Assembly: GCF_910592395.1 (NCBI RefSeq)
Contig: NC_088320.1
Coordinates: 13,886,501-13,950,500 of the forward strand
Direction: 5' to 3'
Length of the DNA: 64,000 bases
Origin: Lineus longissimus
Lineage: Eukaryota; Nemertea; Pilidiophora; Heteronemertea; Lineidae
Shown: one piece after another, positions 2,501 to 57,621 of the stretch
How positions within the stretch are numbered: position 1 is the stretch's first letter
How the letters are laid out: every line of letters starts with the position of its first letter
Notes under the pieces: model-generated
Databases searched by the model: none
What the model was told of the DNA's origin: nothing
What the model saw: the letters and a program-made list of their open reading frames with translations, nothing else
Program-made: the position numbers and the translations under genes

Positions 2501-2984
2501 TCGTATAAAAGAAGGGTAACCTGATCATTTGGCGAGGTTGGCAACATCAATTTAGTTATTTTGCGTCGAGAACTTTCATTGGCCAACCGGTTATGAGTGT
2601 GCGTCTGACGGATTTCCCGCCCCATTGGGCCATATGAATAAAAACTAGCATTTCCTTGGAAGCAAATCCTTCAAGTAGAGGTTACTATTTGCTAAAAGTA
2701 GAAGATTATGCATGTTTTCGAATGAATAATGTGGACCTTTCACTGCAGATGCTTTGCTAAAAATGGTGCTGGTGAGCTATTTCATCTTGTGGTTTTGGTA
2801 TTGTTACAGAAGGGGGCCAAGCTTCCTGAACTTCAGAGCCTTTCACTTGAGTTATGTGTGTGGGAGAGGAGCAAAAACTCACCCAGAAAGTTGATAGGGG
2901 GTCAAGAGGTTTCCTGATGAAAAGATGTTGGCGAAAGTGCTACGTGTTCTGTCCTCGTTGACACACTCTCTCGCGTCGGTATCA

Positions 2985-3290
2985 GGACACTTCCCCCCTG
3001 GACATTTGCCCCCCGGACTTCTGCCCCCGGACTTCTGCCCCCCTAGGACATCTGCCCCCCGGATTTTTGCCCCCCGGACATTAGCCCCCCTAGGACTTCT
3101 GCCTCCCTAGGACATCTGCCCCCCGGATTTTTGCCCCCCGGACATTAGCCCCCTTATGACTTCTGCCCCCTAGGACATCTGCCCCCCGGATTTTTGCCCC
3201 CCGGACATTAGCCCCCCTAGGACTTCTGCCTCCCTAGGACATCTGCCCCCCGGACATTTGCCCCCCGGACATTAGCCCCCATAGGATTTC
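2985..3290 (+). repeat. C-rich minisatellite arm (left)
   Basis: Tandem 17-20 bp units such as GGACATCTGCCCCCC and GGACATTAGCCCCCCTA. The right arm at 4095-4350 is the reverse complement of the same units, so the pair can fold back on itself across about 800 bp. The proline-rich frame read through it (61 codons from 2925) is a repeat artefact. Confidence 0.85.
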
Positions 3291-4094
3291 TGAATACATC
3301 TTTTCTATTTATAGTAACGATAATTCTATATATAGTAACGTCGCGGAATGCTATTCCGATGCTTGTGAAGGGATAGGCTTGCGTAGCTAAGCCCGAATAA
3401 AAAAAAAGTTAGTTGGCGTCCCCCTTCCTACCCGGCAAAGTGCTCGAGAGCCAAAAAAAATGTATAGTGCATTTTACACTAGAATGTACACCTACCCGGA
3501 TTTTATCATGATTCAGATTTTTTTTTATTTGCTCAGCAGCTATATTTTCAGCCTTAAAATGAATTAAAAAAAACAAAAACACCTCCCCCTACCCACCTCC
3601 TCCCAGAAGCAAGGAGGCTAACCAGCTTTTTTTAAAGTGGCCTAATGATACTCCTTTTCTGAGAAATGCCTCTGTCATACAATTTTTCTGTAAATCTATT
3701 TTTAGTACAATGTACATGTATATCTGATGTTTTGAAACGTGTTTGTTGTTTGATTAAAATAGAAAACTTCACATGACACCTCCGTCTCCTTCCACCATCA
3801 CAACCAATCAAGAAATGAAGTTATAGTACAGGTCAAAGAAGGTAATCATTATTTAAATTATTTTGTGCTGAAAATTACTGAAGGGTGGCCTACCTGCTAC
3901 CTTCAGTAATTCTGCTACCTTCAATAATTTTCATTTAAAAGAAATACAGCAATCCTTACCATTCTTACATTTGACCTATGGATTGCCCTGGAGTAATGCA
4001 CATAAGTATGCTCTTAAATCTATTAATACAGGCCAAAGCTGATCATCCTGCTACTCTTGGACTGACCGACTCATCCAAGTTCTCTTTGACTGTC

Positions 4095-4350
4095 CCCGGT
4101 GGTAAATGTCCGGGGGGCAGACGTCCTAGGGGGGCAGAAGTCCTAGGGGGGCTAATGTCCGGGGGGCAAATATCCGAGGGGCAGATGTCCTAGGGGGGCA
4201 GAAGTCCTAGGGGGGCTAATGTCCGGGGGGCAAATGTCCGGGGGGCAGATGTCCTAGGGGGGCAGAAGTCCTAGGGAGGCTAATGTTCGGGAGGCAAAAA
4301 TCCGGGGGGAAAGATCCGGGGGGCAGATGTCCGGGGGGCAAATGCCCTAG
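4095..4350 (-). repeat. G-rich minisatellite arm (right)
   Basis: Inverted counterpart of 2985-3290, with units such as GGGGGGCAGATGTCCTA and GGGGGGCTAATGTCC. It is a strong candidate for G-quadruplex formation on the + strand because every unit carries a G5-G6 run. Confidence 0.85.
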
Positions 4351-40500: not shown

Positions 40501-43500
40501 AGGTTGTCCTTAATAGAGAGGTGTCCGCTAACAGAGGTTCCACTGTGCGTGGTTTAGTCTTTACGATTTCTAAACTTTTAAACCGAATAGTACGGTGGCT
40601 GGGAAAGGACATCGAAGAAAAAAAAAATTATCGGCGGGACGACTTATTATCTCGGGGGGACGACATATTATGTAGGGGCGGTTCGTAAGCAAGAACGCCA
40701 GACGACTAGCTTCCATAAAATCTATGACTCGAATGCTTTATTCTATACACAGCAAAAGCATGGTGAAGACTATTACATGATTAGGTTAGATGAACGACTA
40801 AACATTATGACACAACACGTATTACAATTCAATATGAACATGAATGAAAGAATTAAACCTATAATATAATCGCCGCGACATACTCCCCGCCGCGAAATGG
40901 TGATGAGCAAATTCTTTTTGTCTTTTGTTTTTTCATAGTAAAAGTAGAACAGTAGAACATAGTAAAAAGTTATCATGACATTGTCTCTAAGTTGTGACTT
41001 GACTAGACTAATACATTAGCAAGTTAGTCTGACATGTTTCTGATTCGGTCCCTAGCAGCGATTGCTGCTTGTCTCCTAGGTCGCGCAGATGAATTGTCCT
41101 CGACATCTGTGTCTGGTGTGTCCTCTGACTGACAATCACTAGATTCCAGATGAATCAACTTCACAATGGGCCTATTGGTATGACCTCTGGCGGTTTTCAA
41201 ACTGACAGATCTCACCAGACCATCATTCCCATAATGCAACTCGGTGACCTTTCCCATGTGCCATTTGACTCTGTTCTGATTTTCATCCTGAATGAGGACC
41301 ACATCATTAATCCTTATCTGATTTCGAAGCGTACCTTTCCCCATCCCTCGGTCCCTCTCACGCAGGGCGGACAAATACTCACTTGACCATCTGTTCCAGA
41401 ACTCTTTCTGGAGCTTTGCCATGAGCATTATCCGCCGCTGCATTAGTGATGTGGAGAAACCGAAGGATGGGTCATCAACCTCCTCCAAATCAAACAAGGG
41501 TAGGCCTAATGTGCCTTTGGTCAGCACACGACCATTAAGGAAGTGAGATGGTGTCAACGGTTCTAGGTCTCCAACTTCAGTAGACTGGAATGTTATAGGC
41601 CTATCGTTGAGAACTGCTGCTATCTCAGCAACGACAGTTTGCAACTCTTCCAATGTCAAAAGACGGCGGCCTAATGTCTTCTTCAAGACAGACTTTGTCA
41701 ATCCAATCAAACGTTCATAAAAACCACCGTACCATGCTGCGCGTTTCTTGATGAAAGTCCACTTGACTCTGTGATTTGCTAGGTACGTTGATAGAATGTC
41801 AGAAGATGATAGGAAAGTCATAGCATTGTCGGAAATCATCTCTTGCGGCAGAGATCTCCTGGAGGCGAAACGTCTGAACGCGCGTAGGAATGATGCAACC
41901 GACAGGTCATTTACTATTTCCAAGTCGATAGCCCTTGTGACTGCGCAAGTGAAGAGGCATATGTAGGCCTTGGAATCACCCTCACCACCTCGTACGAAAA
42001 GAGCACCGGTGAAATCAACTCCACAGACTGTGAAGGCAGGAGCCGACAATAGACGGCTTGCTTGAAGAGGGGGTGGTATAGGTGATCGGAATGGCTTACC
42101 CATGACTCTCTTGCAAATGACACAGTCGCGTAATAAACTCTTCACGCGTTGACGTATGTTGGTAATCCAGAATTTCTGTCTAATGTGAACAATGGTAGAC
42201 TGCGCACCAGAATGCAGAACTCCAGCATGTGCCTGAAGAATGATCAGCTTAGCATATCTGTGCTTGGATGGGATGAGAATAGGAAACTTGGCATCATGTG
42301 AGATTTCTGCATTGTGGAGTCTCCCACCGACACGAAGTAGACCATTTTCTCCAATGAACAAGCGCAATTGATTCACAAGTGGGCCTTTCACACTTTTCTC
42401 CTTTATGCCCTGAATTTCAGCTTGGTAGCTGCGATTCTGAATTGCTTTAATCCACACTAATTCGGCAGAATGAATCTCATCAGACGTGAGAGGGCCAACT
42501 TTGCGGAGTTGGTGCTCTTTGCGCAGGTTTGACACAAAGCGTAACACTAGGGCACTAACGCGAAGTAGAGCGGTGTACGAGTTGAATTTGTCCAAGTCGA
42601 TAATGTTGCTGATGTCAGTAGGTTCGGTAACCTCGCTGACCGTCGTGACGAGTTCCGTTTCCGGTTGAGTACGTAGCGATTCCGATGAACGATCCGCTGC
42701 GTCCGAATTGACGTTCTGAGCATGAGAATCAAGATACTCGACATTCTCCGGCCATGTTTCTGTGCATAGCCAGTGCGGTCCTTTCCACCACAAGGTGGCA
42801 TGACGAAGGTTATCGGCAGTTAATCCACGTGTGATGACGTCTGCAGGGTTATCCTGCGTCGGACAGTAACGAATCTCGTTGATCATATCGTATGAACGAA
42901 TCTCCTTGACTCTGTTAGCGACAAACGTAGGTAGTTGTTTCTCGCTGTGTAACCAGCCGATGACAATCTGACTATCAGACCACAAGACAGAGTGTCCGAT
43001 ATCGATGTATGGTCTCAAACTCTCGTGTACGTATGCTAGCAAGCGTGAGCCAACTAGAGCTGCAGTAAGCTCTAATCTAGGCATAGTCATTGACTTCATT
43101 GGTACGACACGTGACTTTGCCATTACGAGCGAGACTTCCGATCCTCGTACCAAGTAGGCACAGGCACCGTATGATTTGATGCTAGAGTCCGCGAAGACAT
43201 GCAACTCGTATGATCCTCCTTCTTTATCAACAGTCTCGAACAGCTTCCGTGGTATATCGCTCGTTTGGTAGGCCTCAGCTAATTCCTGAGAAATGGTCAC
43301 CCAGGATTTCGCTAAATCCTCGGGAAGAGGCTCATCCCACGACAGTTTACGTTTCCAGAGTTCTTGTAGGAATACCTTCCCCTTGACATGAACGGGCGTG
43401 AGGTATCCTAGAGGATCAAATATCGAACTAATGACCTTGGTGACGTCACGTTTGGTCACCAAAGCTTCAATGTCTGGTGGTTTGTGATTCCACTTGGAGT

Positions 43501-46500: not shown

Positions 46501-49307
46501 TTACATGATTAGGTTAGATGAACGACTAAACATTATGACACAACACGTATTACAATTCAATATGAACATGAATGAAAGAATTAAACCTATAATATAATCG
46601 CCGCGACATATTATGTCGGGGGGACGACTTAATAGTGAGGTTTCGCAACCACCCTTTTAGGCCCTACGACGACGTTTATCTATTGTGTGAGTTTACCTGA
46701 ACAATAGATAAACGTCGTCGAAGGGCCTAACCGGGCGGTTGCGAAACCTCACTATTATCTCGGGGGGACGACTTAGTAAGTCGGGGGGACGACTTATTAA
46801 GTCGGGGGGACGACTTATGAAAGCAAGGGCGAGGCCTGGCTGTGACTGTCTCATCTCTCTCACCATGTAGACAACTTGGCAGAGCAGCCAAGCCTGATTT
46901 GGCCTGGCTGTGGCTGTCTCATCTCTCTCGCCATATCAATAACGGCAGTGCGGCGAAGACTGATGCGGCCTGGCTGTGACTGTCTCATCACTCTCATCAT
47001 GTTGTCAACACGGTGGAGCAGCCATGACTGATTTGGCCTAGCTGTGACTTCCTCATCTCTCTCACCATGTTGACAACTTAATAATAATATTGCCCTACTG
47101 CCTTTTTCATGAATCAATTTTGAGCATTATGTTTACAACGTAGTTGACAATAATTATAGTGAGAGAGATGAAACAGTCACAGCCAGGCCGAATCAGTCTT
47201 GGCTGCTCTGCCAAGTTGTCTACATGGTGAGAGAGATGAGACAGTCACAGCCAGGCCTCGCCCTCGCTTTCATAAGTCGTCGCCCCGACTTAATAAGTCG
47301 TCCCCCCGAGATAATAAGTCGTCCCCCCGACTTAATAAGTCTTCCCCCCGACTTACTAAGTCGTCCCCCGACTTACTAAGTCGTCCCCCTGAGATAATAA
47401 GTCGTCCCCCCGACATAATAAGTCGTCCCCCCGACTTAATAAGTCGTCCCCCCGACTTACTAAGTCGTCACCCCGAGATAATAAGTCGTCCCCCCCGACT
47501 TAATAAGTCGTCCCCCCCGACTTAATAAGTCGTCCCCCGACTTACTAAGTCGTCCCCCTGAGATAATAAGTCGTCCCCCCCCGACATAATAAGTCGTCCC
47601 CCCGACTTAATAAGTCGTCCCGCCGATAATTTTTTTTTTCGATGTCCTTTCCCAGTCACCGTAGTTGCAGCCTGTTGCAGCCTGTGCAAAACCGTGCAGC
47701 GCGTCTTATCACCAGGACCCCGCGGCGATCCCACATTACTCCGGTGCTAGCCAAGAAACACTGGCTGCCTGTGCGCGAGCGCATAATTTTCAAACTACTC
47801 CTCCTGACCTTCAAAGCATACCACCGGCTTTCACCAATTTATCTGAACGATCTCATCCAACATTACGTGCCACCTCGTTACCTTCGCTCTGAATCTCAAG
47901 ACCTTCTCACTTGCAGAAAATATAGATTAAAAACATTTGGAGGTCGAGCATTCGCCACTTTAGCACCTCAACTGTGGAACTCTCTTCCCCCCACCCTGAG
48001 AGCTACATCGGATGTCTCAACCTTTCGCAAACAACTCAAGACCCTTCTTTTTAATAGAGCTCACAAGCGCCGGTGAACATTTGTTTCAAGTGATACAGGC
48101 GCTTTACAAATAACAATTTATTATTTATTGTTATCATGATAAGCTTTGTATGACGGGGGACGTACAGAACATAGAAGAGCAGTCAGTGGTAGTATCCGTG
48201 CATTCCCGTTCTTTCCAACAGGTCCATATCGAAACAACAATAACATGACACATGTGGGTGTTGCATGAGACATACATTGAAAGCCTTCGTCGGTGCATAG
48301 CCGAAGACCAGTTGTTCGATTCAATAACAGTTTTTGTTTTGGATTCCAATCTTGACACTAGATGCACTGAATTCGTTCCTTACAACGCATCTAGTACTTG
48401 TGCGTTGCCGCCATCTTGAAGAGCGTATTAACGCGGATAAAGAAAAGGATTGCCAAGAGGTTATCGCATCACCACTAAGCCCGCGAAAAGGATTGCTGCC
48501 CTACGCTGCAATGATAGTTCTCCTTAAAATCACATTAAATCCCACCAGAAAGTGTTAGCTTTTATTTATTAAGCTCGTATTTTGTTTTTTATTGATAAAA
48601 TAAAACGTTTTATGAGGAAAAGGGGGACTAATTCGGCCTGAATAAACCTTACAGTCTGAACTGATGACACCTGAATCTCAGGATGCCGATATCCAAGATG
48701 GCGGTAATTGATCAATCCCAGTGTCTGATGTTTTTTTAATTTTGGCACTGTTCGAGCTTGGGGCGATTCTAGGTAATTATGCTGACCTGACATAAATGCA
48801 CTGTGTACGTTGTATAGAAGTTTAGCAATACAGTCCGTCATTCATTTACTTTGTATCGAGCAAATTCATTGCCACCGGTAAGTCGGCATAAGATGATGGG
48901 TTGCACGAGCAGGAGTCCTAAAGGTGATGAAATACCCCAGAGGGGCACCGAGGTCAAATGATAACTGTTTTGTCCTTACCTCTACCTACCCTTTCCATCC
49001 AGATGTCTGCTCCTTTTTTGTTTAATTTTGGACCCGCTACATCTTCATGTTGTGATGAATGTAATATGCAAGTGGTTTGCACTTTGTATTCAACACTAAA
49101 ACCTACCACACGTCTTCCTGAAGTGAATATAATAGAGCACTGCAGTAGAGATCTCGTCAACGGTACCTTCTTCGTGGTAAGATAGCCTTCCCAATGCACT
49201 CTCTCAAAGATTCTCAAAGGATTGACCATTTGTAATGAGGGTACATGATAGATAGCCATGTGTATGTTGAATGCACTACTGAGCAGTGAAGACACGTGAT
49301 AAGGCAT
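25582..49307 (-). CDS. Uncharacterised tandem-family protein with a 22.4-kb intron
   Basis: Exon 1 is 48980-49307 (328 bp, the same length as exon 1 of the + strand paralogue) and ends at GAG|GTAAGG. Exon 2 is 25582-26546 and follows the acceptor CTCCCTTTAG|GT. Both are intact, on the same strand and phase-compatible; joined they give 430 codons against 436 in the paralogue. The intron (26547-48979) contains a Polinton, a DIRS element, a BEL/Pao retrotransposon, a foldback element, MITEs and a LINE fragment. Its 5' part (48130-48310) matches the 597-bp intron of the paralogue. Conserved stretches match those of 17702-19609, including SIIFTSGRRVVGFSV and VNYTMTGLRCRPVLSDDMSH. The function is unknown. 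The alternative is that two separate gene fragments happen to be complementary. Confidence 0.65.
27192..27806 (+). repeat. Left Polinton TIR (interrupted by MITE)
   Basis: 27192-27328 plus 27771-27806 are inverted relative to 39690-39859, sharing CAGACGCGAAGGGCTACATA and ATTTATATGTAAATAGTGTC. The uninterrupted right copy shows the ancestral sequence across the MITE insertion point. Confidence 0.85.
27329..27770. mobile_element. Harbinger-like MITE, TIR AGGCCCTTTTCCACTA
   Basis: The ends are AGCCCCTTTTCCACTA and the complement of AGGCCCTTTTCCACTA, flanked by AAT on each side. The right Polinton TIR contains the empty site (GACAATGACACAT), so the 3-bp AAT duplication is directly demonstrated. 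The interior is GC-rich with several CGACCCGGGTCGAG palindromes. Three-bp duplications fit PIF/Harbinger. Confidence 0.8.
27931..28218 (+). CDS. Polinton-borne open frame with KKVV repeats
   Basis: A 95-codon frame, unrecognised. Residues 31-62 consist of about four 8-residue repeats of the type KKVVSPH/KKVVNPP, encoded by a 24-bp tandem repeat at 28018-28110. It may be a fragment of a larger structural gene, since the following frames (28245-28502, 28526-28783) are also truncated. No function is proposed. Confidence 0.35.
   Translation: MVTILSNDVSQEFLINNNPWSHRQDLIQIPKVVSPHKKVVNPPKKVVSLHKKVITPPKKVVRYYPLKTQHKDMFTYDFFNFDVYVTPNTLIVFSI
28245..29094 (+). pseudogene. Broken Polinton left-arm gene(s), unrecognised
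   Basis: Successive short frames at 28245-28502, 28526-28783 and 28897-29094 are closely spaced on one strand in different phases, as expected for one or two ancestral genes with frameshifts. Features include FNLAVWFATTGCGISI, WTSWSVPDYDPKITDPGYYI and PTSILRYQNAVTQTHTGLDF. I cannot assign a family. Their position between the TIR and the capsid-like gene suggests Polinton structural or packaging genes. Confidence 0.4.
29115..29417 (+). CDS. Polinton-borne small hydrophilic protein
   Basis: A 100-codon frame, lysine/asparagine-rich, with no recognisable domain. It runs in the same direction as its neighbours with short spacers, as in compact virus-like gene arrays. It may be a remnant. Confidence 0.3.
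   Translation: MVLNVGKTDNYNDNILIAPSNAQPGINDINKKKIVATPPMEEDSVKKIKFKTNVEKVKDPPFKTTVEENRQNDIRTSTDVPIEDIVTPFTIKMTMKHIIQ
29563..30413 (+). pseudogene. Polinton-borne protein, one frameshift
   Basis: Frame 29563-29751 (acidic, Thr/Asp-rich) continues after a one-step frameshift near 29745 into a frame that runs to 30413. The second part includes KWKYVSEDLNNLLPHLLIKG, VLVYCPEDVEV and a C-terminal RLIDTTGDELKEFGFIEY. The combined length would be about 280 residues. The family is unknown to me; the arrangement next to the membrane-protein frame suggests a virion-related gene of the element. No ATG precedes the second segment, consistent with a single original gene. Confidence 0.45.
30452..31054 (+). 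CDS. Polinton-borne membrane protein with Pro/Gly linker
   Basis: A 200-codon intact frame. The N-terminal 45 residues are a charged coiled coil (LEKEITELEDKLYEEKAKV). Residues about 70-95 are a hydrophobic segment (IAAIVSVVVMIFTTLGFTI), followed by a GPKPGPEPGPEPGPDSKPDP linker and then an amphipathic Lys/Leu region with AAAALPGIVGPIVSFLL. Residues about 175-195 form a second membrane segment (MIITLIIIISSIIYGLMGGF). Similar proteins accompany this type of element in other invertebrates as far as I recall, but I know no assigned function. A role in virion or membrane association is an inference. Confidence 0.55.
   Translation: MLEKEITELEDKLYEEKAKVWRIDNVRESQAERAKRLIKDVLIKPDSTISLNDRIILLFKSEGLNIAAIVSVVVMIFTTLGFTISNALKAASKPTPTGPKPGPEPGPEPGPDSKPDPKPKLSIPDQVKEGLKKFADWLKELAKKAAAALPGIVGPIVSFLLKTVDSVVGFLTEHMIITLIIIISSIIYGLMGGFRAVKER
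31169..31860 (+). pseudogene. Polinton-borne capsid-like protein, 3' truncated
   Basis: The frame runs about 230 codons before the DIRS terminus at about 31857 interrupts it; the last 30 or so codons to the stop at 31963 are DIRS sequence. It begins around KADRQHHIITHNPSTANPKE, but the first in-frame codon is TTG, suggesting loss of the ATG. Motifs ETLYVRIPALRENTFFVP, NNLGRNLISKMVIKWG and RVYKFPISEDVIIEITLAP fit a conserved protein of Polinton-like elements in invertebrates that I tentatively regard as a capsid component (beta-rich, about 350 residues when complete). The exact role is not certain. Confidence 0.5.
31857..32045 (+). repeat. DIRS left inverted terminal repeat
   Basis: Inverted relative to 38785-38998, for example TAACTCAGTTCTCC and CTGACCAATCCCGCGAGAT on opposite strands. 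The exact outer limit is inferred from the internal complementary region, which contains GTGTCATTCAAAC next to the same CCTATGGAACAC. Confidence 0.8.
32318..34629 (+). pseudogene. DIRS gag-like ORF, frameshifted
   Basis: A series of overlapping + strand frames (32318-32809, 32754-33359, 33320-33565, 33851-34417, 34288-34629) rich in Pro/Ser/Arg gives way to a helical segment (YRELRAREGLAKNTLAVLSY, SLSHSIRHAIALSAKTAANN). Its position before RT and its length of about 770 codons fit DIRS gag. At least four frame changes make it non-functional. Confidence 0.6.
34816..35690 (+). pseudogene. DIRS reverse transcriptase
   Basis: RT motifs in order: HIFLVPKKAGTWRLIIDISR, LNNFLNVPHLKMET, an in-frame TAG at 35086-35088, MDLAYAYLHVPIHPDYQHFL, RFHYEGKMYQFRALPFGLAS and the active-site HYLDDWLL at about 35287-35310. 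After the stop at 35422-35424 the conserved connection region (HLVAEFRGRTQAPARRCLSL, LGRLYMRPIQM) continues in another frame up to the poly-C tract at 35700. It converts RNA to cDNA in intact relatives. This copy has one stop and at least one frameshift. Confidence 0.85.
35692..36687 (+). pseudogene. DIRS RNase H domain and linker
   Basis: Beginning directly after the C18 tract (35700-35717): SLFTDASLLGWGAHL (first Asp), NVLEMKAVLLAVRAL (Glu), TLFSDNSTVVAYVRRQGG (Asp) and RHIPGKRNILVDALSRQ (last Asp), the full RNase H signature, ending before the recombinase ORF with which the frame overlaps. It degrades the RNA strand of RNA:DNA hybrids in active relatives. The segment itself is uninterrupted, but its connection to RT is broken at the poly-C tract. 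Confidence 0.88.
36525..37577 (+). CDS. DIRS tyrosine recombinase
   Basis: An intact 350-codon frame overlapping the end of the RNase H frame, as usual in DIRS elements. It has a phage-integrase-like N-terminal SAM-like region (about residues 20-110; LDVYQGKWSTFTSWCKGNG, AIKGYKSTIAST) and a C-terminal catalytic domain: Arg in ATAQRRSELH (158-159), HEVRALATSWA with His290 and Arg293, Trp316 in CWSNHSTFSRFYLRD, and nucleophile Tyr326. In active elements it integrates a circular DNA intermediate without target duplication. This frame has no stops, but the element as a whole is decayed. Confidence 0.92.
   Translation: MHLHQRGFSDIAVKRMSAPQRGSTLDVYQGKWSTFTSWCKGNGVNPISHSIYRLVDFFIELFTEKQLSVTAIKGYKSTIASTLRVLSTWDLRWENQITPLFRGMLLERPRPVNNTPKWDLYVVLEVLMRHPFEPMSISSMKYLTLKTVFLVALATAQRRSELHALFFKKLAFREGGEVILAFIPGFLAKNQGPAASRPPVTIPSLSRTISYDLPDRTLCPVRALKFYISRTKPPGIRQGRERLFLSYKEGNKREIGAATISRWIVETIRLSYNTLRTSSDLRALANISAHEVRALATSWANYRGVALQEVVSAACWSNHSTFSRFYLRDVSSLVDGMHAIGPIVTAGHVV
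38180..38350. mobile_element. Hairpin in the DIRS 3' region
   Basis: ATTGAACCCTCGGCTTCGGA is mirrored by a segment ending CCTCCGCCTCGGGTTCAAT, with the inner pair ACCTTGGTTGAGTTACCAAG. The arms are about 75 bp with a short loop. It could be a MITE nested in the DIRS element or a structured 3' region of DIRS itself. Confidence 0.6.
38650..38735 (-). repeat. DIRS internal complementary region
   Basis: Flanked by GTGTTCCATAGGTAAGT at one side and its complement at the other, it contains GAATGACACAA (complement of the element's left end) joined to GGCCATTTTGTTAGTTCAT (complement of the right end). It is therefore a copy of the junction that would form if the two termini were ligated. In DIRS elements this region templates completion of the circular intermediate. 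Confidence 0.85.
38785..38998 (-). repeat. DIRS right inverted terminal repeat
   Basis: Reverse complement of 31857-32045 with scattered mismatches. It ends near AAGGAAATGGG at about 38998, after which Polinton integrase coding sequence resumes on the - strand. Confidence 0.8.
38999..39679 (-). pseudogene. Polinton integrase (rve-type), truncated and frameshifted
   Basis: Reading from 39679 downwards: an N-terminal segment (LRDLYYNTESPVAFSS, LLKTLPTYQLHKS), then VDQQWQADLVDMQ (first catalytic Asp), then in other frames a central segment with the second Asp (FDDGKEFYN, about 39255) and a Glu-containing segment, then RMYKYFTAKE and VSGYNNTFHSSIGMKP. This is the retrovirus-like DDE integrase of Polintons, which inserts linear element DNA. 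At least two frameshifts and loss of the C-terminus at the DIRS boundary make it non-functional. Confidence 0.8.
39690..39859 (-). repeat. Right Polinton TIR
   Basis: Reverse complement of the left TIR, ending in CT at 39859 and followed by AAACTT (target duplication). It retains the uninterrupted ATGACAATGACACATCAC that marks the empty MITE site. Confidence 0.85.
39866..40365. other. Intronic gene-free stretch
   Basis: Host intron sequence between the Polinton and the next MITE. The 150-codon frame on the - strand (40017-40469) and the + strand frames overlap the MITE and have no recognisable features. Confidence 0.4.
40368..40545. mobile_element. pogo/Tigger-like MITE
   Basis: CAGTAAAACCTCTCTATTAA at the left and the complement of CAGTGGAACCTCTGTTAGCG at the right are typical pogo-type termini. 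Internal copies of CCTTAATAGAGAGG and its complement occur. It is preceded by TA and followed by TG, so the TA duplication is decayed or imperfect. Confidence 0.7.
40671..40880 (-). repeat. BEL 3' LTR
   Basis: 210 bp, TG..CA boundaries on the + strand, one substitution relative to 46399-46608. Confidence 0.95.
41024..44119 (-). CDS. BEL/Pao Pol: RT, RNase H, integrase
   Basis: 1031 codons. In order: reverse transcriptase (HAFTADIEKAFLNVGL; NNIYVDNLASGTD as the active-site region), RNase H-like part (ELHVFADSSIKSYGACAY; VLWSDSQIVIGWLHS), an integrase zinc-binding region (HAGVLHSGAQ..CVICKR), the integrase core with CGVDFTGALFV, MISDNAMTF and WYGGFYERLIG as D, D, E, and a C-terminal domain with GDLEPLTPSHFLNGR. 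It copies element RNA and integrates the cDNA. The ATG lies in an ATGA overlap with the stop of the upstream frame, but the conserved sequence immediately upstream (LPHHAV) is encoded in this frame, so the original protein was probably one polyprotein now split by a single-base indel near 44140-44160. Confidence 0.93.
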   Translation of the reverse strand: MRSDSTTTPIRIVYDCSCKVGDAPSLNDCLETGPPLQNDLAAILLRFRLHQHAFTADIEKAFLNVGLAEEDRKFTKFLWLSDVSNPDSALRVFQFKVVLFGAISSPFILNAAVRSHLEAQDSTTSWDIRNNIYVDNLASGTDTVPQAVSYYKDSRNEMHVGGWNIRAWASNCPEVVNCAKRDNVLSSDTNVKVLGMYWDTEEDTLHYSKWNHKPPDIEALVTKRDVTKVISSIFDPLGYLTPVHVKGKVFLQELWKRKLSWDEPLPEDLAKSWVTISQELAEAYQTSDIPRKLFETVDKEGGSYELHVFADSSIKSYGACAYLVRGSEVSLVMAKSRVVPMKSMTMPRLELTAALVGSRLLAYVHESLRPYIDIGHSVLWSDSQIVIGWLHSEKQLPTFVANRVKEIRSYDMINEIRYCPTQDNPADVITRGLTADNLRHATLWWKGPHWLCTETWPENVEYLDSHAQNVNSDAADRSSESLRTQPETELVTTVSEVTEPTDISNIIDLDKFNSYTALLRVSALVLRFVSNLRKEHQLRKVGPLTSDEIHSAELVWIKAIQNRSYQAEIQGIKEKSVKGPLVNQLRLFIGENGLLRVGGRLHNAEISHDAKFPILIPSKHRYAKLIILQAHAGVLHSGAQSTIVHIRQKFWITNIRQRVKSLLRDCVICKRVMGKPFRSPIPPPLQASRLLSAPAFTVCGVDFTGALFVRGGEGDSKAYICLFTCAVTRAIDLEIVNDLSVASFLRAFRRFASRRSLPQEMISDNAMTFLSSSDILSTYLANHRVKWTFIKKRAAWYGGFYERLIGLTKSVLKKTLGRRLLTLEELQTVVAEIAAVLNDRPITFQSTEVGDLEPLTPSHFLNGRVLTKGTLGLPLFDLEEVDDPSFGFSTSLMQRRIMLMAKLQKEFWNRWSSEYLSALRERDRGMGKGTLRNQIRINDVVLIQDENQNRVKWHMGKVTELHYGNDGLVRSVSLKTARGHTNRPIVKLIHLESSDCQSEDTPDTDVEDNSSARPRRQAAIAARDRIRNMSD
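44116..46365 (-). CDS. BEL/Pao Gag and protease
   Basis: 749 codons starting MTDKEKAAERLAF. It has a helical N-terminal region, then a DUF1759-type Gag segment (KLDLETFSGDILLWQTFIDG; RTIHGLALTNLNYAHAMEIL), three Cys/His clusters (CAFCKGTHYSGEC, CFNCLGRHKIKDC, CRKCKKRHHTAIC) typical of nucleocapsid zinc knuckles, a retropepsin-like site ILFDEGSTRSFIT, and the start of the A17/RT leader (LGYLLSGHLHS). The usual DSG/DTG of the protease is DEG here. The frame stops at a TGA four bases into the ATG of the Pol frame; most BEL elements have one continuous Gag-Pol frame. Confidence 0.92.
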   Translation of the reverse strand: MTDKEKAAERLAFSRRSHRGQLTKLTKRADEFIENFDELSDDELDKLESTMDSIRSKINFLKQLDEELLELIPTKELEEAVITFDDYLLDVQENYDVLQMRLKRSRGRCTRKTTSDPTTKDKSNCRLPKLDLETFSGDILLWQTFIDGFIASVHNNSKLEDIEKFQYLKRQLKGEAARTIHGLALTNLNYAHAMEILRKRYGQRHKIVAATMKALMELPVTTSADAKGLRHFYDTLESHVRTLDTLEKDQSSYGDFLVSIVLDKLPTSTKQQLARDHGSCEWSLPDLRVALGAEIEALEAGDVSADSSSACSGYSSELQSTAAFHTNVKSQRKPYCAFCKGTHYSGECTVYAKPADRLTQTRKLQLCFNCLGRHKIKDCKSKFTCRKCKKRHHTAICSGSRPDEKETNSNNQNTTQQSERETTESEETVQSVTTGCTDEMTVTHVGKSGSVLLKTAVTDVSSSTASCKATILFDEGSTRSFITTELAEKLSATSNGSHTLSLTTFGGKPGSARKFDEVTFSVHTISGEKMQMSALVVPRISQMNNRINSSLLSLPHLQGLTLAHPISNVDSLQITLLIGADFFWDFVEDHVIRGPGPTAVRSKLGYLLSGHLHSQTKDSQALSHVISTDTSQDVSDYQQYWDLETIGIKDDPCRAMADDTDRYKSFCKTHLRHDGTRYVASLPWKENHNPLPTNYDVCVKRTRNTIQRLSSELRRTYDSIIQDQVARGFIEEVIGDDLTSGHYYHTTRL
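46382..46394 (-). promoter_or_regulatory. BEL primer binding site
   Basis: TGGTGCCGTGACC on the - strand, a few bases inside the 5' LTR, beginning with the TGG expected for pairing to a tRNA CCA end. Confidence 0.7.
46399..46608 (-). repeat. BEL 5' LTR
   Basis: 210 bp, the upstream LTR in the element's orientation, followed by the TATTA target duplication. Confidence 0.95.
46631..46756. mobile_element. Near-perfect hairpin MITE in the foldback arm
   Basis: AATAGTGAGGTTTCGCAACC..GACGTTTATCTATTGT on the left is mirrored by ACAATAGATAAACGTC..GGTTGCGAAACCTCACTATT on the right. The arms are about 55 bp with a loop of about 17 bp. It interrupts the GTCGGGGGGACGACTTA repeat array. Confidence 0.8.
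47262..47635. repeat. GTCGTCCCCCCGACTTAATAA minisatellite (right foldback arm)
   Basis: About 18 tandem units of 20-21 bp, each made of AAGTCGTCCCCCC followed by an AT-rich GACTTAAT, GACTTACT, GAGATAAT or GACATAAT variant. Each unit is itself partly palindromic (GACTTAATAAGTC). It is the inverted counterpart of 46757-46815 and 40640-40670. Confidence 0.9.
47665..48120 (+). pseudogene. LINE 3' fragment (CR1/L2-like RT C-terminus)
   Basis: A frame through 48076 encodes the conserved C-terminal part of Jockey/CR1/L2-type RT: QPVQNRAARLITRTPRRSHI, VLAKKHWLPVRERIIFKLLL, TFGGRAFATLAPQLWNSLPP and STFRKQLKTLLF. It is followed by AGGCGCTTTACAAATAACAA and a (TTATTTA) tail, typical of a LINE 3' end. 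It is 5'-truncated at the foldback element's right terminus, so the foldback element inserted into it or next to it. Confidence 0.85.
48121..48979 (-). other. 5' part of the giant intron
   Basis: 48130-48310 is similar to the middle of the 597-bp intron of the + strand paralogue (18310-18480). The remaining sequence has no supported feature. Two different frames stay open through the similar segment in both copies, but neither is phase-compatible with the exons. Confidence 0.5.
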
Positions 49308-50399: not shown

Positions 50400-50690
50400 T
50401 GCAATACTATGCATGTTCTGTCACTATGCATGTCATGTCACCATAAATGCTTAGGCACCATGCTTGTCCAGGCACCTTGTGTATCCAGGCACCATACTTG
50501 TCAAGACACCATGCATGTCCTGGCACCATGTATGCCAAGGCACCATGCAGGTCCAGCACCATGGATGTCCAGGCACCATACTTGTCAAGACACCATGCAT
50601 GTCCTGGCGCCATGTATGCCAAGGCACCATGCAGGTCCAGCACCATGGATGTCCAGGCACCATGTTTGCCAGGTACCATACTCATCATTA
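50400..50690. repeat. CACCATGC minisatellite, copy 2, with 84-bp higher-order unit
   Basis: Basic units of the GGCACCATGCATGTCC type. Two adjacent 84-bp blocks, 50486-50569 and 50570-50653, are almost identical (I see one difference, GGCACC against GGCGCC), showing recent higher-order duplication. Open frames on both strands are repeat artefacts. Confidence 0.85.
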
Positions 50691-50924: not shown

Positions 50925-51387
50925 TGATTCATCACACCGCACCATGCGGAGTGATGAATGATTGAAACTGTTTATGAAACAGGATGCAGATGACCTACCA
51001 CAACAGATGACGGACACTGCGGTATCGTACAGACTCCCACACGATGAGCAAAAGCGAGACTAACATCTTAGTAGTGTCGGAGGAAAACATCAATCCCAAC
51101 ATAGAATCTATATCTCACTGTGAACAAGCGCGCCATAAACAGCGTATGCTATACAAACAGGAAGTACATTCCAATGGTCAAATTATATGTTGTATATGGT
51201 GGAAAACTGCACATATTATTGCCGACGGGGTATAGCCCATTGAAAAATAGCCGATTCGCAATGAAATACCCTTTCGTTACAGAAAAATGTGATCAATGGA
51301 CTCTTCTTGCGGGATATATATCATGCTCGTTTGTACACTGTGTGTATGCTAGATATCCATTGGACACCCGGCTTCAGCCCATTTTAA
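50925..51387 (-). repeat. 3' end fragment and downstream module of another family copy
   Basis: 50925-50965 (- strand) resembles the last codons of the family gene (HHFRMVLGHD region, CACCATGCGGAGTGATGAATGA against 25595-25620). 50965-51120 matches the downstream module of 2225-2500 and 25310-25480. 51355-51383 matches 25485-25505. The Kolobok-like element is inserted at the TTAA ending at 51387. Confidence 0.55.
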
Positions 51388-51409
51388 AGGATAGCTCCTG
51401 GAATAAATC
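51384..51409 (+). repeat. Left TTAA target and TIR
   Basis: TTAA followed by AGGATAGCTCCTGGAATAAA and TC; a 22-bp exact inverted match to 57318-57339. Confidence 0.85.
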
Positions 51410-51992
51410 GTTGGCAGCCTTTTTGAACGAAACAATGGAAATATATTAAATGAGTATTCCTCTTTACCACAAACCTTTTGAAAGTGGAAGAAATATAATA
51501 GTTCAGGAAGAAAAATTGATATTAATAGTGCCTTTTTTACTGACATGGACGACGCCATTTTGAGTCAAATTTCCCTCGGTGATGACGCGGTGTGTGCAAT
51601 GGCAGTGATTGGCTGAAATTCCGAAGCCCCGATCGTGCATATTATGGGCTTGTCACCGCTTTTCGCGCGTGCGCAGTGTGTGAATCCATGTCAATATCCG
51701 TTTCTTCACGTGTGGTGAAAATCTGGAAAATCCTTGATCAGCCAAAACAACATCATCTGCAAGATTCGTCTTTGATTTTTTCCAACTTAGATCTGCTGCA
51801 TTGCCTCACTGATTTCACTATTTCTGTCTTAAATCATTCATAGTATCTCCTCGACCTATAATTGTGCAACTATTGCATGTTTTATTGTTGTTTTATTTTG
51901 TACTATATACTGCATGTGCATGTACTGTACAAATCATTCTAATTTCGTTTTATTTGGACATTCGCGTAATATATTGATTGCTTGAATGCAAA

Positions 51993-54900
51993 ATGCCTCG
52001 GTGCATGGTCCCAGGATGTGGGAATATGTCCGGTGTGACGAGTGGAATTCGATTCAAACAGTGGCCACTGAAAGATGAAGAACTTTCTAGGAAATGGTTG
52101 CATGCGATTCGGCGGGCTGACCTAGACAAAAGAAAGAAAACATTCACAAAGAATGACCGAGTTTGCGAGCTACACTTCGAGAAAGACTGTTTTGAATCTG
52201 AAGGTGAGCTGAAGGCCAAAGCATTTGGAAGGAAGACCCCGAAAACTTGGATTAGAGCTGACGCAGTGCCCACCCTTTGCAAGCCTGGCCAGTTCCCCGT
52301 GCCCTCGCCCACCCCGTCCTCATCATCGAATTCCGCCAACGGTGCAAGTGGGAGTGCCTTGATTTCGACTCCTGCATCATCAGTCAAGGTTAGAACTCCG
52401 AAACGACCAAGAAGTGTTGACAGGATTAAAAGGCTAACCCAAAAAAATGTAAGTAGCCTAGTGGTGTAGTAGCCCTAGGACTATAATATAGGAAGGCCGA
52501 GCCATACGCCTACGGCCTACCGCTAGGCCTAGGCCTAAAACGAATATGACCTAGGCCTAGCTCTAAACGAAGGCAGTAGAGTAAGCCCTAGACCTTCAGA
52601 ATATGCAGTCTCTCGACTCTAGGCTCAGCCCAGCATGACCAGCAAAACCATGGAAATCTAAACCGACCTTTTCCTTGCCAAAAGCACTATAATAATATAA
52701 AAGCCACTACCAGTACCACAGCCCCCCTACTTTTGAGTCTGTGGCATAGCCTGTGTGCCTTAGTTATATGAATCATACCCCGACAGACATGGGGCTTGGC
52801 ATGTTGCGGGCTACCCTCACCGCTCCATCAGCCACTCAAGTATATACTCTTACTGTGTATTTACATTGATTTACTAATAGTCCTGCTCTACTTCCAGATT
52901 GTACAGTCATTACTTCAAGACAGCCCCAGCAAAGCAAGTGAAGTCAGCAACACCCCAACGGTTGGGAAGAAAAGGAGAAAAAATTATACCGAGCCACCCA
53001 CGCCACCAGATGCCGATGTCATCCCCACCCCACCACCAGTGAAGCATGATGTTGATACCCAAACAGACTGGGATATGGCATTCATGCAGAGGATAGCTGG
53101 CATGTTGTATGGCTCAGTGGAGGTCATACAGCATGATCATTCCTATGGTAAGGTAATTGTAAAATGAATCCTAACTTCTAAAGATTTGGATGTAACAATA
53201 GAAATACAATAACCATGGTAATTCATTAAATGAATCATGTTTACCTATTAAAAGTACTGTATACATTAGCAGTAAGCATACATCATACAATGAGGCAAAT
53301 GCAGAATGTCCTACTGTACCCCAAATGATGAATATACTATTACTAAAGAAAAAAACAATCCATTTATTGATTCAAATAATGGTTTAAAGTATACGTGTTC
53401 AGTAATAAAAACATTCAAAAGCTTTGATGTACTAGTAGTAATGTGACATTTCCCACTTTTCAGGCTAATCAACCGGATCAAGATTCCACTCTCCGACCAA
53501 GATCAAGCAGTGAAGGTACAAGAGAAGCAGACTTGCAACCTCCTCAGCCTAGTCCTGATATCAGCTCAACAGATGTGCTACAATCATGCCAGGTTAGTTA
53601 TTTTCAAAGACGCTCATTGTTACCAATGCTGCTTCCTAGCTTTGAGGAATAGGAATTTACTTACCATTACCAACAAACAGTGTGCATGTGATGTATGTGT
53701 AGGTGGTTGGCTTGTTATACAAGCATTATTTTCTGGTACATGTACATTACGGTATAATGGAGCTAAATGTGTTCATGAATACCCCCCCCCCCCCCCCCCC
53801 CCGAATGTGAGTGATCGCTTTGCTCTTGATATTGTCTCTAACTAAAACCAAAAATTCTGTTCCAGCTTCTGCCTGGAGGAGGAAGTAATTTCACTAGCTG
53901 CTACCTCAGAGTCTGATGTTACCAGTGACGACTCTGACTTCGAGCTTCCTACCACAGCGAGGAAGGTGGATGATTGTGCAAAACACTTTGATATATTAGA
54001 CGAGGACCAATTTTCCAATAGTGCTGGTGATTACATTGAGCAGGAGAAATTCATTGTGTACGATGGTAAACTATTAGATATATTCCTATCTTATGGCACT
54101 TGTCCAGACTGTGGCCAGAAGTTTGGAACTATTTGTAAGAATCAAATTCAGCGTGGCTCTTTAGTCACATTTCGTTTGGTTTGCAAAAACCACCATGTCT
54201 TCTACTGGCATTCCCAGCCTGTTTGCAACAAGGCTCCAGTTGGGAACATTTCATTGGCTGCCTCAATTCTCTTCACTGGAAATACTTTCACCTCTGTAAT
54301 GAAATTTGCCAAACTAATGAACATCCGCTTTATTACAAAATCAACGTTTCATGGCAAACAGAATGTGTACATCTTTCCTGTGGTAGATGAAGCTTGGAGA
54401 GAGCACAGGTCCAAGCTTGTTCAGGCCCTGCAGGACAGGTCAATTACTGTCATTGGCGATGGACGGTGTGACTCACCTGGACACAGTGCCAAGTATGGTA
54501 CGTATACCGTTATGGGGGCCGCCAATGAGAAGGTGATTGATTTCAGTTTGAAACAGGTTAGACCTGATTTGAAGAGCTGCAACATGGATAAAGGGGGCCT
54601 CATCGACTGCCTTGACAGCTTAAAACATTCTAAAATTACAGTTGGAGTTTTGGCTACTGACCGCCACCCCCAGATTTCAAAGATGATGCGAACTAATTAC
54701 AAAGAAATTAACCACCAGTATGACGTCTGGCACTTTGCCAAAAGCATTTAAAAAAAAACTGAATAAAGCTGTCAAGAAAGCCGCTTGTCGCCCTCTTGGT
54801 CCATGGATCAAGGCTATCATTGTTCACCTCTGGTTTTCAGCTGCGTCTTGTGAGGGTGACCCTGTGTTGTTGAAAGAGATATGGACATCCATCCTGTATC

Positions 54901-55400
54901 ATGTCCAGGATATCCATGAATGGGGGGACAAAACCATGTTTCATGCTTGTAACCATGCCCCCCTCACAGACGAAGAGTCTAGAAAAAAGAAATGGCTTGA
55001 ACCAGACTCTCCTTCACTAAAAGCATTGGCAACTGTTGTCAATGACAAGAGATTACTGGCAGATGTTGGTAAACTGAGTAGTTTCTGCCACACAGGAATA
55101 CTAGAAGTGTATCATTCAGAGATGATAAAATACATGCCAAAGAGCAGGAATTTTTCTTACAAGGGCATGGTTGCAAGGACCCAGCTAGTTGCATTGGATC
55201 ACAATGAACATTCTGAGCGCAAACAGATCACCAACAAGTCAGGGAAGCCACGATATTACCACAGTTGTCCCAAGGGACGGGACCATTGGGTTGCAAAAAA
55301 TGTAAAAGAGCAGAAGGATTATGCTTACCTGTGGTTGAACATGTCATGTCTGGCACAAAACCCACACCGGTGTTGGAGCCAATCCTTCCACAGAGAATAA
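51993..55400 (+). pseudogene. THAP-domain DDE transposase (Kolobok-like)
   Basis: Proposed exons: 51993-52448 (donor GTAAGT), 52898-53152, 53464-53592 (donor GTTAGT) and one from about 53866-53879 to 55400. Exon 1 encodes a THAP zinc finger starting MPRCMVPGCGN: Cys4, Cys9, Cys58, His61, Trp35, Pro25 and the AVPT motif at 91-94. Exon 4 has CPDCGQKFG, IGDGRCDSPGHSAKYGTY (first Asp, codon at 54458), VLATDRHPQISKMM (second Asp, 54659), YDVWHFAKSI and CHTGILEVYHSEM (Glu, 55104). These fit the D-D-E core of THAP-containing Kolobok-type transposases. The frame breaks by one base at an A9 run (about 54751-54759). The exon 4 acceptor that keeps frame is 53879, not the stronger one at 53866. One base change would separate this from an intact gene of about 790 codons. 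Confidence 0.85.
53782..53802 (+). repeat. Poly-C tract (C21) in intron
   Basis: A run of 21 C in the intron before the last transposase exon. Confidence 0.9.
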
Positions 55401-55958
55401 CCTCTGTTGAATGACCTGATCTTGAAGAGTCGCTCCGATACTCTAGGTTCATCAAATGAACGAAGGTGGGAATTGAACAGACATGACATGTAGGGTGGGT
55501 TGGGTTGGGGGGAATTTTTGAAGCTAAAAAACATATTTTATTGGTCTTTCAGGCCAACAAATAATGAAATGATTTAGTCTCTTTTGTTAAACTTTGAATA
55601 AGAATGCTTTATTGAATTTGTATAACATCAAGTGTATAACTTTCTGGGGCCACTTCTTGTTTGGACCCTTTCATAAATAGATTTATAAAAAATATTTAAA
55701 TGCATTTTTCTAAAGTTTTTTTACAGGCCCTTGTCTCATGGTTGGCCCGGGTTAGAGATCAATTACAGTAAAGGGATGCCACCCAGGAGAGATTACAGTG
55801 CATAGTATTCTAAAAGTGAAATATTTCTGAGGTAACCGTCTTCTGGACTGGGAGTCAATTGAAAAATGTCCTTGATTGCACTATGTCCTCTTCTTTAGAT
55901 AAAATGTGTCAGCAGTTTTTGGACTAGGATACCAAATAAATAGTGAGCGTGAAGAAAT

Positions 55959-57022
55959 TCAGTCTGACTGGTCAAGGTCATCCATATTGGCTTCAAGAAA
56001 GCCAACATATTGGCCATCTGCAGCTGGGAATACCTCCCGAATACGCTTCACCACACAACTTGGGATGACACGACGAACTTTCCGGCCGAGGAACCCATGG
56101 GCCCAAAAGATCATTTGACGGTAGGCCCCATGCCTGGGGCACCTGAAAGAAGAAAATTCAACTCCAAGAATATTTATTTTTTTATCAGGAACCTATTCAG
56201 TTTATCTTGTACACTAGTATTATATTTACATTTACCATGAATGTTCAATTAAATTGCTTGTTATTCACATAAAATCAGTTCTTATCTTATGCCAGTTGCT
56301 TCTCATTACTGAAGCCCCCATGTAAAAAGTGATGGAGTGGGGGTTAGAGAAGAAGTTATTCTCTAGCAATCCTCGAAAAGAATGACTTAACTGTGAATGT
56401 TATGCCATTGCCAAATTTTGTTGAAGCAAAGAGAAATTAAATTTTTTTGGCCTGTTATGGGAAAAAATAAAATTGTTCATTTCTTTTGACTTTAATTTTG
56501 CTACAGCCCACGACTCTGAGCCCCTTACTTGTTTGTCGGAGTGTTGTCATCCCTCCTCTCGATATAGGCGTGATGTAGCCGGGCCATGGTTGTTTCGATC
56601 ACTGCCCTGTTCAGGCAGACGGGGACGAAGTCCTGGTGGTCTGTGATGCATTCCATCAAAACGTCCCCACTGTCTGGGTCCTCAAACTTGGCTGCCACTA
56701 CATCCTGATCATGGCAGCACATGCACTCAATATGTGTAGCCATAATATCACAGTGTGTGCATTTGCACCACTCCTCAACATTGAGGGTGGTCCGGTCCTC
56801 ATCGGCGACCCCATCCACGTCCTCATTTCGGCCATCAACATCGGGTCCAGCTGCATCTTCAACAGCTTGAGCCATAGTGGCAAGCTCCCCCTCTTCATAT
56901 TCCGGCTCAAACTGGTAGCCCTGTACACTTACATTTCCCCCTATATCCAAATCTTCATAACTCCCGCTGCTCATCGAAGTGTCACTGCTGTCAACATAGT
57001 TTTCATCATCCGAATCCGACAT
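55959..57022 (-). CDS. P2X7 ballast-domain-like protein in the transposon
   Basis: Two exons, 56529-57022 (donor GTAAGG) and 55959-56142 (acceptor CTTTCAG), join in phase to give 225 codons. Residues 1-80 are very acidic and Ser/Asp/Glu-rich. Residues 85-137 form a Cys-rich core (EEWCKCTHCDIMATHIECMC; Cys86, 88, 91, 100, 102, 103, then MECITDHQDF with Cys125, and PVCLNRAVIE with Cys136). Exon 2 carries GAYRQMIFWAHGFLG and RRVIPSCVVKRIREVFP, then DGQYVGF. This order matches the zinc-binding cytoplasmic C-terminus (ballast) of vertebrate P2X7 receptors, with no channel part present. It is convergent with the THAP transposase inside the same TTAA-flanked element, so it is probably a passenger or accessory gene. 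A polyadenylation signal AATAAA lies on the - strand at 55608-55613. Confidence 0.82.
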
Positions 57023-57114
57023 GATTACAATACAATAAAACGATCTAAAAATATCAATCAGCTGACGGCTATTGTACGAATCCTATTGTACTGACATGCG
57101 GTGAATTGCACACG

Positions 57115-57122
57115 TGACGTCA
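57115..57122 (-). promoter_or_regulatory. CRE-like palindrome upstream of ballast-like gene
   Basis: A perfect TGACGTCA about 93 bp upstream of the ATG at 57022, overlapping a CACGTG E-box. It is a plausible promoter element of the passenger gene; functional use is an inference. Confidence 0.4.
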
Positions 57123-57317
57123 CGATTCTCCGGTTTTGGAGGAGAGATCGCGAAAAAAGTGAGAAAATGGCGCCCTCCATGAACTCTGTGTTTAGTGGAT
57201 TAAAAACACCTTTATTGGTACAAACGCAAATTTTTGTGCGATATACAGTCCTATATTGGAATAATAATGATATACGGAATATGCAGGTGTGTTAGTTTTC
57301 CCGATTATCGCTATAGT

Positions 57318-57343
57318 GATTTATTCCAGGAGCTATCCTTTAA
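57318..57343 (-). repeat. Inverted copy of the left TIR followed by TTAA
   Basis: The - strand reads TTAA then AGGATAGCTCCTGGAATAAA, identical to the left terminus over 22 bp. Confidence 0.85.
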
Positions 57344-57621
57344 GAGATACAGCCGTGGCACAAAATCATTATTTAGACTAGCTGAACGTAGTAAAAATAC
57401 CTAAATTGGTAATTACATCTTATGCAATTCATTGACTGAGGTCAGTAATTTCATGCAACATTATGAAATGTTACCCGGATGCCCAGCACACATAATAAAC
57501 TACCTGAGGGGAACTCAAAGCTGCAAATATTTATCAATAAAAGCTTATTCCCGGCTTATGTTTTAACCGGGCAGTTCAAAACTCCTCATTTTATAGGCGT
57601 TTTGTAATATGTTTCCTTTAA

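Follow-up and report, generated by a model that had tools for sequence, protein, structure and literature searches.

Kolobok transposons of the Kol0 lineage (Kolobok-1_XT and relatives) combine a TTAA target duplication, 5'-RR...YY-3' ends and a DDE transposase with a second protein with conserved cysteines, KolX, which has the fold of the ballast domain, the cytoplasmic zinc-binding domain of the P2X7 receptor (Kojima & Bao 2022, PMC9587614). In the accessible part of that paper, P2X7 is proposed to have originated when a P2X4-like gene fused with KolX, nanor is regarded as a likely domesticated KolX, and stand-alone ZCD proteins are assigned to Kolobok families. In the available sections of Rump et al. 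2020 (PMC7016195), stand-alone domains, including nanor, and short channel-less proteins in many phyla are described; the main text has no words beginning 'transpos'. The transposases of the Xenopus Kolobok families carry THAP and DDE domains as well as a zinc finger, according to the accessible part of PMC6004289, in whose text neither KolX nor P2X occurs. Here, we describe an element with the Kol0 features listed above in a 64,000-nucleotide stretch of the 391 Mb genome of the nemertean Lineus longissimus (C13:13886501-13950500, hereafter the window). It is a new nemertean family of an already published kind, provisionally placed in Kol0 by its KolX gene content, and the link between the ballast domain and P2X7 is itself not new. 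We are nearly certain of the identification of the element and of its KolX gene. It is also probable, to our mind, that this is a Kol0-type transposon in which KolX serves transposition as a nuclear accessory, and that P2X7 later reused a relative of the domain.

The transposon occupies window positions 51384-57343 (5,960 bp including both TTAA sequences), and its interior of about 5.9 kb holds two convergent genes. The left end, consisting of the TTAA target duplication and a 22-bp terminal inverted repeat (51384-51409, plus strand), forms a perfect 26-nt inverted pair with the right end (57318-57343, minus strand). This 26-nt sequence has just two matches with up to three mismatches in the whole window, where 0 are expected by chance, so that the TTAA-flanked element recognised in a first-pass annotation of this DNA is secure. 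The right end had been set there at 57617, which is 274 bp beyond the real boundary at 57343; the final 30 bases of the element are identical in five further copies (L011, L012, L013, L015 and L018). Immediately inside the TTAA the element begins with AG and ends with CT, in agreement with the 5'-RR...YY-3' termini that the accessible part of PMC9587614 gives for Kolobok. As is also characteristic of Kolobok, TTAA is found at both ends of the window copy, L011, L012, L013 and L018, with two exceptions elsewhere: the left end of L015 reads TTGA, and L014 is without a right end.

The KolX gene lies on the minus strand. Its first exon (57022-56529) encodes residues 1-164 and part of codon 165, including an acidic tail, a PYx[FY]EP-type motif (GYQFEP, residues 35-40) and the first zinc cysteines, and its second (56142-55959) encodes the C-terminal ballast part with RHGAYRQMIFW and RRVIPSCVV. 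A predicted GT-AG intron of 386 bp splits the ballast domain. The 225-codon, two-exon reading convergent with the transposase, as originally annotated, is borne out by the spliced product, which is 100% identical to an NCBI Lineus longissimus protein named 'P2X purinoceptor 7-like' (P0001); this database entry is thus a transposon gene. It had been suggested that the 225-residue product be searched against the C-terminal domain of P2X7, and P2RX7_C (PF20478) matches residues 77-213 with 68.9 bits (cut-off 23.5). This is the sole Pfam family at E <=1, and the same search found no P2X channel domain with its two transmembrane helices, in line with the earlier claim of a zinc-binding P2X7-type domain without a channel. 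In being short and channel-less, KolX resembles nanor and the stand-alone ZCD proteins. Six proteins from Lineus, Misgurnus, Hydractinia, Holothuria and Tubulanus (P0001, P0005, P0051, P0058, P0063 and P0090) are named 'P2X purinoceptor 7' or '7-like', and are too short for a receptor, at 141-225 amino acids.

KolX was compared with P2X7 by profile and in an alignment of 70 ballast relatives. Profile positions 69-201 are homologous to P2X7 467-592 (E 2e-20), and seven KolX cysteines (C86, C88, C91, C102, C103, C125 and C194) align with P2X7 C477, C479, C482, C498, C499, C506 and C572. These seven counterparts of the P2X7 zinc ligands are each conserved in 63-67 rows, and KolX would be expected from this conservation to bind zinc. 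Along with the predicted fold and these seven cysteines, KolX and P2X7 share equivalents of R546 and R578. KolX differs in lacking the channel, in a near-invariant eighth cysteine (C136, in 64 of the 70 rows), the position of which reads as V517 in human P2X7, and in an arginine pair that P2X7 lacks (R188 in 66/67 rows, R189 in 58/67). Ahead of the domain, the acidic tail carries a conserved P-Y-x-[FY]-E-P. Counted where letters exist, its first proline is present in 56/60 rows, the tyrosine in 60/62, F or Y in 60/65, the glutamate in 57/65 and the final proline in 60/65; the motif starts 29-63 residues before the ballast domain in the 27 rows measured. The structure model gives this region moderate confidence, with a predicted local distance difference test score (pLDDT) of 72 for residues 31-40 and 81 for residues 41-50.

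The second gene, on the plus strand, has predicted exons at 51993-52448, 52898-53152, 53464-53592 and from 53866 onward, all in phase 0, and extends to 55700 as an outer limit of its 3' end. Both this gene and the uninterrupted product of a sister copy match THAP (PF05485) and Mutator-like transposase (PF20700), the sister product with E values of 2e-14 and 8e-11, which upholds the first-pass reading of a THAP/DDE transposase; what that reading overlooked are three indels, near 53891, 54750 and 55328, that shift the frame in comparison with sister copies. The uninterrupted frame belongs to L011, which encodes an 821-residue transposase, the sole full-length frame among the five copies aligned end to end. 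A DVWH motif in L011, along with the PF20700 match, agrees with the C/DxxH signature of Kolobok DDE transposases. The six GT/AG sites of the gene are present in four of the five aligned copies, L015 lacking the first donor, and two NCBI Lineus longissimus proteins, P0120 and P0122, match pieces of the transposase at 97 and 99% identity.

The family to which this element belongs is well represented in the genome. The left 217 bp of the transposon match 39 places, 38 of them at full length, and seven long copies carry both transposase and KolX sequence (the window copy, L011, L012, L013, L014, L015 and L018). Identity to the window over the aligned element is 99% for L011, L012 and L013, and 97% for L015. 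The long copies have decayed to different degrees: insertions are present in L013 and L018, part of KolX is duplicated in L012, L014 retains KolX exon 2 only, and L015 has lost part of the THAP exon. Nevertheless, the frame for the 225-residue KolX is uninterrupted in four of the five end-to-end aligned copies (window, L011, L013 and L015). Eight short copies (L022, L023 and L025-L030) are internally deleted and lack both genes; what they retain is element positions 1-327 and 548-628 and a stretch from 5436 almost to the right end. The same ends, with more insertions, are seen in L016/L017 and L019/L021, and remnants of the KolX N-terminus of the short-copy kind number at least 31.

These copies bear directly on the origin of the gene. 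Many animals have annotated stand-alone ballast genes, according to the available part of PMC7016195, so a host gene into or beside which a transposon happened to insert might be considered. For the window family, this is refuted by the copies and hardly credible, as other loci hold this gene in the same position and flanked by the same ends, three of them (L011, L012 and L013) with 99% identity to the window over the aligned element. The location of KolX inside the transposon, as originally annotated, is therefore sound. Loss of the gene from other copies had been named in advance as the finding that would count against that annotation; in this family it is confined to short, internally deleted copies, from which (in the eight read) the transposase is missing as well, and all seven long copies have KolX sequence.

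A cAMP response element (CRE)-type octamer, TGACGTCA, lies at 57115-57122 (unstranded), 93 bp upstream of the KolX start codon. It is kept in all five end-to-end aligned copies, the window included, and in eight of nine further copies (the eight short ones have it; the long copy L018 does not). The presence and conservation of this motif, first noted as a promoter element, thus stand. As proof of a promoter the octamer alone counts for little, because it occurs five times in the window.

To see how general the arrangement is, ballast genes and transposases were located genome-wide. The KolX search scored the best 150 of 290 candidates, and a class II ballast query (see below) gave 111 matches, from which 29 rows that were not already listed or were class II were added. 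The joined list holds at least 119 ballast loci, with the 31 KolX remnants left out. With the window-family transposase as query, 88 matches fell into 71 loci, the best 80 of 524 candidates being scored. Among the matches listed, 34 ballast/transposase pairs lie within 9 kb of each other, against a chance expectation of 0.39, although related copies are not independent events. Every one of these 34 has the convergent, tail-to-tail layout; seven belong to the window family and the other 27 have transposases 30-50% identical to the query. The pairing of a ballast gene with a transposase therefore recurs across many related Lineus transposons.

This regularity weighs against the passenger role inferred in the first-pass annotation, and against a reading of the ballast gene as a captured host gene of no use to the transposon. 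The domain does occur in the host genes P2X7 and nanor (PMC7016195, accessible part), many internally deleted copies exist without both genes (at least 31 KolX remnants), and 37 of the 71 transposase loci lack a neighbouring ballast locus (within 9 kb) among the matches listed. However, KolX sequence is retained in all seven long copies (as exon 2 only in L014), the convergent layout holds in every pair, 27 of which have transposases just 30-50% identical to that of the window, and it is repeated in a second Kolobok class. The passenger reading is disfavoured by these observations, and we regard it as very improbable.

In the account that we favour instead, the THAP/DDE transposase would cut and paste the element at TTAA, and the convergent second gene would yield KolX, in which an acidic tail with a PYx[FY]EP-type motif precedes a zinc-stabilised ballast domain without a channel. 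KolX would most probably act in the nucleus as a partner of the transposase or its DNA, and we lean towards such an accessory role in transposition. Conserved arginines in the C-terminal half of KolX, and a CXC-like motif in class II, suggest possible contact with DNA or nucleotides. As has been proposed in print, P2X7 would later have reused a relative of the ballast domain as its cytoplasmic tail.

Several observations sit poorly with this account. The transposase of the window copy is broken, so this copy is unlikely to move by itself. Selection on KolX within the family is not demonstrated: comparison with L015, which involves 22-23 changes, gives a ratio of non-synonymous to synonymous substitution rates (dN/dS) of 0.50-0.58, and between the 99%-identical copies, with 4-5 changes, the ratio is about 1.1, or undefined where synonymous changes are absent. 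Furthermore, among the matches listed, 85 of the 119 ballast loci have no transposase within 9 kb by the first transposase query, and the 37 transposase loci without a ballast locus in that distance include one with an open frame of 635 amino acids (C4:15831598).

KolX might also act on the host and not in the transposition reaction, for example by blunting silencing or by sensing guanine nucleotide and so tying transposition to the state of the cell. The ballast domain of P2X7 binds GDP, and the accessible part of PMC7016195 describes the contact site in the rat protein as R546, H547, R574, R578 and K583. Among the relatives, the R546 equivalent is kept in 61/67 rows and the R578 equivalent in 62/66, and by alignment the window protein keeps three of the five positions (R168, H169 and R200), including the H547 equivalent. 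However, H547 is present in only 5/67 relatives, the window protein has V196 and A205 where the rat protein has R574 and K583, and there is no known host target. A host-directed role is unlikely, if less so than the passenger reading.

A second class of ballast proteins, class II, is represented by the Lineus loci L044 and L049 and by the proteins P0079, P0089 and P0090 (P0090 belongs to a sea cucumber). Class II rows are without the PYx[FY]EP motif; a linker containing proline precedes their domain, and in Lineus they show a double cysteine (PSCC), as does P2X7. Absence of the motif was considered as a clean mark of class II and rejected: 53 of the 70 alignment rows match Yx[FY][EQ]P as a strict pattern, and only three of the 17 that do not are class II. 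In Lineus, class II is again a TTAA-flanked element with AG...CT ends. Its copy on C8 spans 8,280 bp (C8:11834124-11842403; L050 1625 to L053) and is 99.5% and 99.9% identical to a copy on C14 (L052/L054) in two aligned stretches, with unrelated flanks; no terminal inverted repeat was seen in these two copies beyond the first bases. At the border of the C8 element ends a minus-strand open frame (L050 1049-1624) that resembles a piece of a Tc1/mariner-type transposase.

The class II transposase is 32% identical to that of the window family over 479 aligned positions (E 2e-65). Pairing was assessed with 14 ballast loci and the 48 class II-looking rows of 108 transposase rows, with the best 89 of 266 candidates scored. 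Among the matches listed, ten of the 14 ballast loci pair with a transposase within 0.9 kb, all convergently; two more are convergent at 13.5 and 15.6 kb, and two are without a transposase. The C8 ballast gene is predicted to splice in frame: three exons, of 552 bases (measured from where the open frame starts), 63 and 120, lead into the ballast exon and give a frame of 420 codons. Its first exon holds a cysteine motif (TCSCKATCARGCPCKK...) that we take to be CXC-like; CXC-type motifs bind DNA in other proteins. Pfam matches the ballast part of the product with 103 bits and leaves the CXC-like part unmatched. At a further locus, L051, 85% identical in the ballast protein, the middle splice sites recur, with the first donor displaced by some bases, the last acceptor altered and stops in the conserved exon blocks. 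The joined CXC-ballast frame is thus established for the C8 copy only.

The accessible part of PMC9587614 mentions neither the acidic tail motif, nor a fixed convergent layout of Kol0, nor a CXC-ballast class. Among open-access main texts in PubMed Central, it is the one relevant paper found on KolX, on a link of P2X7 or nanor with transposons, and on Kolobok in Lineus longissimus, so that an account of the second class may exist in other sources; Kolobok together with 'CXC domain' gave none in the open-access literature of the same archive.

Class II rows, and not the window family, are among those nearest to mammalian P2X7 of the rows compared. In single-sequence searches, the class II exon of L050 matches P2X7 with 57 bits (E 1.6e-14), and the window protein matches P2X7 with 30.6 bits (E 2.7e-6). 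When 80 rows were searched with the human and mouse P2X7 domains and 79 matched, class II took ranks 1, 2, 3, 5 and 6 by the better score, and the window protein ranked 60th. According to the available part of PMC7016195, the P2X7 ballast is encoded in one exon; class II shares this, but in the window family an intron interrupts the domain. The element first annotated is therefore not supported as a model for the donor of the P2X7 tail. The more general idea that a transposon supplied the domain to P2X7 is plausible, and it is not novel, having already been proposed for Kol0 (PMC9587614, accessible part).

A phylogeny of transposon-borne and receptor-borne domains, which had been suggested as a check, places P2X7 on the class II side without a firm position. 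In a tree of 37 rows (26 from the alignment, nine Lineus domains and two P2X7), P2X7 and five class II rows are separated from 30 class I rows with support of 89/85, which the program rates as neither shown nor rejected. Within this group, P2X7, on a very long branch, joins P0079 and P0090 (96/89), and the Lineus class II pair branches separately from these two at a poorly supported fork (77/44). A tree of 70 rows (67 from the alignment, from which P0002, P0095 and P0101 were removed because their ends are missing, and three others; the Lineus class II pair was not among them) joins P2X7 to P0090 (91/19), P0079 (97/84) and P0089 (99/93). The nearness of P2X7 to class II is suggestive and not proof. 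It is possible, and we put it forward only tentatively, that the P2X7 tail descends from a class II Kolobok accessory protein, with its CXC-like motif, proline-rich linker and one-exon ballast, and not from KolX proper. Our confidence is kept low because the trees do not firmly join the Lineus class II to P0079, P0089 and P0090, and these three need not be transposon-borne.

Tandem repeats are also found elsewhere in the window. An array of 17-bp/84-bp units (50409-50679), about 700 bp to the left of the transposon, overlaps a 123-codon open frame. Two arrays of 64-bp units (2984-3292 and 4104-4344), about 0.8 kb apart, look mutually inverted, and 21-bp tandem units at 40631-40678, 46753-46818 and 47272-47626 have a common TCGGGGGGACGAC core or its complement.

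In a wider sense, the survey bears on the source of the P2X7 tail and on the original role of its zinc fold. A single genome holds at least 119 ballast loci, and every pair detected within 9 kb is arranged tail to tail. For annotation, this is a warning that some invertebrate 'P2X purinoceptor 7-like' genes are transposon genes. The CXC-like motif that the class nearest to P2X7 carries in Lineus points to tests on DNA, not on membranes. If the tentative class II origin is true, the ancestral role of the domain would be DNA-associated, and P2X7 would have reused a DNA-handling module of a transposon as the nucleotide-binding tail of a receptor.

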